Assembly: GCA_023136835.1 (NCBI GenBank)
Contig: JAGLQN010000003.1
Span: 1 to 37,564 of the forward strand
DNA length: 37,564 nucleotides
Reading direction: 5' to 3'
Origin: Candidatus Omnitrophota bacterium
GTDB lineage: Bacteria; Omnitrophota; Gorgyraeia; Zapsychrales; Zapsychraceae
The notes beneath the pieces were generated by a model. The model ran no database searches and was not told the DNA's origin. It worked only from the letters and a program-made list of their open reading frames with translations. The position numbers and the translations under genes were made by a program. This document shows positions 90 through 28,866 of the stretch, piece by piece. How positions within the stretch are numbered: the stretch's first letter is position 1; the number at the start of each line of letters is the position of its first letter.

Positions 90-110
90 GGATACAATAA
101 GGATTTTTTT

Positions 111-149
111 ACAGCATAGGATCGTAAAAATGCGGATACTACTAGAAAA
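111..149 (+). repeat. Half copy of a dispersed repeat (copy A) at the 5' end of the pilP-like gene
   Basis: This 39-base stretch begins ACAGCATAGG and ends CTACTAGAAAA. It matches 28751-28791 at 34 of 39 aligned positions, with one 2-base gap. The matching copy between rpsJ and rplC continues into a long hairpin, but here the similarity stops after CTAGAAAA and no matching right arm follows. The ATG at 130 and the AGGA at 118-121, which could serve as its ribosome binding site, both lie inside the repeat. Confidence 0.6.
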
Positions 150-531
150 TCGTTCAAAGGTCATCGAGCAAGTGATTTTCTTGTCAATAGTACTGGTTTT
201 AATGGCTGTTGGGGTGGCTGTTGCTCAGGAGGATCAGCAGGGCCAGGAACCGTTTGTCTATGATGATGGCGGACGGAGGGACCCTTTATGGCCGCTCGTT
301 AATTCTAACGGGGCCATTCTTAATTATGAATCGGAATTTTTGATTACAGATCTCGCTTTGGAAGGTATTATGGCCGGTACCGATGGCGAAAATATGGCTA
401 TTATCAATGGGCGCGTTTTGAAGGCGCGTGATGCCATCGGGCAGTTTGTTGTGGAAAGGATTGGCGAAGATTCGATTATTTTGAAGAAGGGTAAACAAAA
501 ATTTGAACTTAAACTAAAAAAGGGGGAATGA
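130..531 (+). CDS. PilP-like pilus assembly protein
   Basis: This predicts a 133-residue exported protein. Residues 1-32 look like a signal peptide: a basic start (R2, R8, K10), a hydrophobic stretch and a possible AVA-Q cleavage site, with no lipobox cysteine. The mature part has an RDPLWPL motif followed by a small beta-rich domain, as in PilP, which links the inner-membrane PilNO complex to the secretin PilQ. The secretin gene starts one base after the stop, which supports this role. ATG 130 is preferred over TTG 70, which would overlap the upstream gene, and over GTG 172, which would remove the basic end of the signal peptide. The assignment rests on context and a short motif. Confidence 0.6.
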   Translation: MRILLENRSKVIEQVIFLSIVLVLMAVGVAVAQEDQQGQEPFVYDDGGRRDPLWPLVNSNGAILNYESEFLITDLALEGIMAGTDGENMAIINGRVLKARDAIGQFVVERIGEDSIILKKGKQKFELKLKKGE

Positions 532-28750: not shown

Positions 28751-28866
28751 ACAGCATAGGAAAATATAAAAACGCGGATGCTACTAGAAAACTCCTTTCC
28801 TATGCAACAATGAAGACCTGCCTGCTGGCAGGCAGGTACAACGAACGAAGTAAGGAGTTTTCTAGT
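28751..28866 (+). repeat. Full copy of the dispersed repeat (copy B) with nested hairpins
   Basis: The element fills most of the rpsJ-rplC spacer. A 15-bp perfect stem (28783-28797 with 28852-28866) encloses a 10-bp perfect stem with a 2-base loop (28816-28825 with 28828-28837). An alternative 10-bp stem pairs GCATAGGAAA (28754-28763) with TTTCCTATGC (28796-28805) and would exclude the base of the long stem. The first 41 bases match the half copy at 111-149. Confidence 0.7.

Follow-up and report, generated by a model that had tools for sequence, protein, structure and literature searches.

The stretch of DNA analysed here (the window, 37,564 nucleotides of a Candidatus Omnitrophota bacterium) carries near its left end a gene for a pilP/GspB-like exported protein, with a secretin gene after it, and further downstream the genes rpsJ and rplC. 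The name pilP/GspB-like is chosen with caution, since the T2SSB score of the product, 28.1 bits, sits just under the cut-off of 28.4. A complete 72-nt member of a family of palindromic elements dispersed in this genome occupies positions 112-183, at the beginning of the pilP-like gene (Table 1).

Table 1. Positions in the window of the palindromic element, its relative between rpsJ and rplC, and the signals of the pilP-like gene.
Feature	Position	Strand	Basis
Former start codon, ATG in G004 and ATA here	97..99	+	Gap-free by-eye alignment with L037 ATAATGAGGATTTTC; one relative only
Target flank, T-rich with a final A (GGATTTTTTTA, element directly after it)	101..111	+	Same flank type at most stand-alone left ends; T-run native by G004 comparison
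Complete 72-nt palindromic element in the pilP-like gene, between ancestral codons 5 and 6	112..183	+	Alignment with C101, C466 and C457 copies; empty G004 and G001 sites; length
AGGA, candidate Shine-Dalgarno site within the element, 8 nt before ATG130	118..121	+	Sequence
ATG within the element, earliest ATG or GTG in this frame; most copies have ACG here	130..132	+	Sequence; copy comparison
Gene of the pilP/GspB-like exported protein (133 aa), of which residues 1-18 would come from the element if started at ATG130	130..531	+	T2SSB 28.1 bits (cut-off 28.4); G004 and G001 orthologs
Right-hand hairpin, left arm AGAAAATC	144..151	+	Sequence; fold, energy itself ordinary
Right-hand hairpin, right arm GATTTTCT	174..181	+	Sequence; fold
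rpsJ-rplC copy, a longer composite with added palindrome	28752..28865	+	G004 and G003 without element

The short form of the element measures about 72-73 nt, begins with CA and ends with CTTG. The window copy aligns with the two closest short copies, stand-alone elements of 73 nt on contigs C101 and C466, from position 117 through the right end at 183, the right end GATTTTCTTG included, and with a further copy on C457 the alignment begins at 112 (BLAST E 4.5e-10). Local alignment scores against the C101 and C466 copies are 64, as compared to 27 and 29 for the best of 1000 dinucleotide shuffles. An earlier note on this DNA had described positions 111-149 as a half copy matching the left end of the rpsJ-rplC repeat. 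The resemblance is upheld by alignment and BLAST and lies above shuffles; the half-copy reading is ruled out because the match continues to the right end, making the window element a full short member and the rpsJ-rplC copy the longer composite. The left palindrome has decayed in the window copy (CAGCAT/ATACTA), and the folding energy of the element is no better than that of shuffled sequences (z -0.57), for which reason it was dropped as evidence for the element.

Five genomes of the genus were compared, the own genome (G000) and G001 to G004, the relatives named here being Omnitrophota MAGs. With the rpsJ-rplC repeat as query, BLAST found 40 places in the same genome with E values of 10 or less, of which 17 were below 0.01 and several shared contigs; the C457 copy as query retrieved the window copy and further copies on other contigs. 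The repeat is thus dispersed, as the earlier note had supposed. G000, G003 and G004 carry the family, whereas in G001 and G002 it is weak or absent. Individual copies are mosaics in which one element sits inside another, and on contigs C115 (L006) and C241 (L004) of G000 several different palindromic units are nested, spanning as much as about 300 nt. In G004 the rpsJ-rplC site is empty, the point of insertion following TTCA. Among listed copies, a list that took in only those with at least 4 pairs, the left palindrome is paired at 5-6 of 6 positions in 13, with three covarying types (CAGCAT/ATGCTG, CACTCT/AGAGTG and CAGTCC/AGACTG). The right end GAGGAGTTTTCTTG, whose first base is G or A, occurs at 38 sites in G000, G003 and G004, where the pattern is concentrated; this count comprises exact matches to AGGAGTTTTCTTG preceded by A or G and leaves decayed right ends aside. 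G016 (L261-L269), a member of another genus of the same family, has ten sites of the right-end pattern, eight of which are the variant GAGGAATTTTCTTG, and at one GAGGAG copy (L261) a GTG-started ORF of 123 codons begins at the junction.

What did the element do to the pilP-like gene? The gene is present in G000, G001 and G004, and the element is absent in both congeners with an ortholog, whose proteins are 79-80% identical to the pilP-like protein over the matched residues and begin with ordinary short signal peptides. In G004 the start region reads ATA ATG AGG ATT TTC and the protein begins with MRIFITVWMALMIAGTAAAQ; the G001 ortholog starts differently, with MKRKALSFALILIMAGAVAAQ. Removal of positions 112-183 from the window leaves ATA AGG ATT TTT TTA joined to TCA ATA GTA and so on, which gives 20 codons up to the Q that G004 also has. 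The codon aligned with the G004 start is thus now ATA, with the element inserted after codon 5 counted from that start and the frame kept; the change from ATG to ATA is read from a by-eye alignment with the single relative G004. Since both the C101 and the C466 copy measure 73 nt, keeping the frame with the old start requires a 1-nt deletion in the window copy or a 72-nt parent. Most other copies have ACG at the position of ATG130, AAAACGCGG corresponding to AAAATGCGG in the window copy. The predicted protein would start with MRILLENRSKVIEQVIFL, encoded by the element, followed by SIVLVLMAVGVAVAQ, the old signal peptide.

These observations suggest that a non-autonomous palindromic element inserted after codon 5 of the pilP-like gene, within its signal peptide, and that translation now probably begins at ATG130, served by the AGGA at 118-121. 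If the start is ATG130, the 18 element-derived residues would form the front of the signal peptide, that is its n-region and the beginning of its h-region, and they would be removed with the signal peptide, leaving the mature protein unchanged, which as a proposal would explain why the insertion is tolerated. We assign a probability of roughly 0.78 to the reading that a mobile element inserted in the pilP-like signal peptide and shifted the start to ATG130, while sister copies placed between the A and TG of other start codons keep their genes translatable (see below). The earlier note had placed ATG130 and its AGGA inside the repeat, which holds by sequence, and had taken the repeat as a translation start, which gains support from the existence of the repeat family and from the orthologs lacking the repeat that it had proposed for comparison. 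Its interpretation is supported in substance and was too small in scope: 18 residues instead of seven would be repeat-derived.

Alternatively, it could be imagined that the in-frame insertion is real and that translation still starts upstream, at AUA97 acting as a weak start or at TTG70 inside the upstream gene, in which case ATG130 would be incidental and the element would lengthen the signal peptide by 24 internal codons. The frame is indeed open from before position 97 through the element, the element is exactly 24 codons long, and an AAGGA at 88-92 sits 4 nt before ATA97. However, in-frame ATG, GTG and TTG are all absent between 97 and 129, AUA is a very weak start codon, and ATG130 has a well-placed AGGA, all of which makes an upstream start rather unlikely. 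It is far less likely still that a repeat near a contig end caused two unrelated pieces to be joined during assembly. Contig C223 consists of the window alone, and the element starts 112 bases in from the contig end, as a misjoin would have it, but in G001 and G004, too, the end of the upstream gene (FKATIFED..) lies next to the pilP-like gene, and the junction follows the target rule of the family. Chance resemblance or a conserved coding motif in common, in place of a mobile element, would fit the 39-base match, which taken alone is short and gapped, but scores far above shuffles, many copies at non-homologous places, full copies and empty sites rule it out. An element entering the signal peptide and moving the start to ATG130 therefore is the reading retained here.

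In-frame insertion inside ORFs was found for two of the 12 tested copies of this subfamily, the one in the pilP-like gene and one in an ORF on C179. In the latter (L142, reverse strand, 993-1112) a 120-nt element lies in frame, the ORF stays open for at least 667 codons, and about 40 residues are added.

A different relation to gene starts is seen in other copies. Of the 38 exact right ends, 7 adjoin the TG of the start codon of an orthologous gene, four in the own genome (trkH, pgpA, a glycosyltransferase 2 gene and the gene after a gspF-like gene on C423) and three in G004 (purD, map and a gene on C84). The names purD, map, adk and gspF are assigned from motifs and neighbouring genes, not from a family search. 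In all seven genes the element lies exactly between the A and the TG of the ancestral ATG, target duplication is absent, and at least one congener has an empty ortholog split exactly at this point. The purD site is empty, with A joined to TG, in all four other genomes; the map site is empty in G000, G001 and G002, likewise with ATG, whereas the start is GTG in G003; and the pgpA site is empty with ATG in G001 and G002 and with GTG in G003 and G004. Empty sites were also found in G003 for trkH, in G002, G003 and G004 for the glycosyltransferase gene, in G002 and G004 for the C423 gene and in G002 for the C84 gene, the comparison being limited to orthologs resolved by the scripts (outside it are C423 in G001 and G003, the glycosyltransferase in G001, C84 in G001 and trkH in G002). 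Left flank meets right flank without duplication, and some flank bases are substituted. On contig C90 of G004 (L213/L168) the element separates adk and map, which overlap in G000 and G002; adk ends at the TAG of the element and map starts at its right end.

Each of these insertions converts A joined to TG into CTT-GTG with GGAG 7 nt upstream, the right end GGAG-TTTTCTT-G thereby supplying a Shine-Dalgarno sequence plus GTG, so that the gene would stay translatable. Since the subfamily of the window copy is without the GGAG right end, its start would work differently from these seven. A possible, tentatively held extension is that the mobile element heals the start codons it breaks and that host genes then tune and depend on the element. 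Within this extension, insertion into packed operons would cost little because the terminal GGAG-TTTTCTT-G restores GTG with a well-spaced Shine-Dalgarno sequence; the element end may have evolved for start repair or may only happen to suit it. At one further right end (L271, contig C111 of G000) a GTG-started ORF of 73 aa, without Pfam family, begins exactly at the junction.

Signs of use come from the family consensus octamer GTGAGGAG, which precedes TTTTCTTG. Of the 31 non-start copies 27 retain it, compared with 1 of the 7 start copies; departures (6/7 versus 4/31) are associated with start copies over the three genomes (Fisher p=4.8e-4), with p=0.050 for G000 and G004 together and p=0.010 for G000 alone. 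Of the 38 right ends 20 belong to G003, none of these a validated start, and the G003 copies on C19, C27 and C98 have near-identical flanks and hence are not independent. The C111 copy was counted as non-start as it has no ortholog evidence, and omitting it gives p=2.3e-4. The changes in start copies lean A-rich, for example AAAAGGAG, GAAAGGAG and GAGAGGAG. Two start copies, on C191 and C204, have an exact right end while most of the remaining element is lost or altered, as might be expected if only the right end were still needed; because the census demanded an exact right end this is only suggestive. A strong enrichment of landings at starts was also considered and is not relied on: 7 of 38 compares to an expected 2.4-9.3%, an expectation derived from one gene-dense window and a rough gene list, with p between 3e-5 and 0.06 depending on the target model.

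How do these elements move? Most stand-alone left ends follow a T-rich stretch and an A, and this flank is native where the empty site is known (pilP-like gene and rplC); the base after the right end is T in 22 of 38 cases. Target duplication is absent in the comparison of filled and empty sites for purD, map, pgpA, trkH, the glycosyltransferase gene, the C423 and C84 genes and rplC. The lack of target duplication together with palindromes near both ends suggests a single-strand mechanism, possibly mobilisation by a Y1 transposase of the IS200/IS605 kind. Y1 genes exist in all five genomes. Among the 12 Y1 loci scanned in these genomes, which are incomplete, only one on contig C20 of G000 has a family element nearby (both ends), which lies directly upstream of the RAYT-like Y1 gene and not around it (L209, 1197-1950). 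Its protein reaches 48.5 bits with NF047646, below the cut-off of 80, and has lost the HUH pair, judged against the HUH motif. An IS200/IS605 or RAYT gene may still be the carrier; a mobilising enzyme was not found among the 12 loci of the five genomes.

The window copy is an in-frame insertion that we infer to have moved a start into the element, and elsewhere the family has split start codons exactly and, on sequence evidence, rebuilt them. It would show concretely how a mobile repeat can turn into the translation start of a gene and the front of its signal peptide. The seven other insertions amount to a natural experiment run several times over, with one and the same element seeming to have replaced both ribosome-binding site and start codon in housekeeping genes that are unrelated to each other. 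Should expression bear this out, it would reveal how selfish repeats can enter tightly packed operons of bacteria, and it would give one cause for the shifting of gene starts among closely related genomes.

A literature search, with many subscription journals outside its coverage, found no repeat described as restoring both a split start codon and its ribosome-binding site. Several known systems share parts of the picture. The family has in common with REP/REPIN sequences and their RAYT (TnpA-REP) transposases the palindromic units, the composite arrays and a relation to Y1 transposases, one RAYT-like gene adjoining a family element (PMC2817692). REPs are described there as extragenic, and the RAYT gene as lying between two inverted REPs, whereas the C20 gene has an element on one side only, no flanking inverted pair, no HUH pair and a score below the NCBIfam cut-off. 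Rickettsia palindromic elements, about 150 bp long, encode conserved peptides in frame within ORFs according to a review (PMC10969869), similar to the copies in the pilP-like gene and the C179 ORF; this likeness concerns the insertion pattern as described there and not sequence homology, and in contrast to the Rickettsia elements most copies examined here lie outside ORFs or at start codons, where the element itself would give the start signal. The pneumococcal BOX repeats are modular and intergenic, encode stop codons in 36 cases and sometimes the starts of small ORFs, which are reported to lack good Shine-Dalgarno sites (PMC3049150), whereas here known genes appear to use an element-borne Shine-Dalgarno site. 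The closest anatomy is that of the palindrome-associated transposable elements (PATEs) of Haloquadratum walsbyi, which also are without terminal inverted repeats and target duplication, have palindromes near their ends, are too short for a transposase, heterogeneous and often nested with other mobile elements (PMC3119063). PATEs differ in belonging to another phylum, and the parts of their description drawn on here mention no supply of start codons or ribosome sites; they are linked to an IS605-type transposase, and of the 12 Y1 loci scanned here one had both ends of a family element nearby, upstream of the gene and not around it, so the assignment is one of anatomy only. With palindromes close to both ends (left by pairing, right arms by sequence and fold), no target duplication between filled and empty sites, and a short form of 72-73 nt with ends CA.. 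and ..CTTG and without terminal inverted repeats, the element matches the definition and is PATE-like by anatomy.
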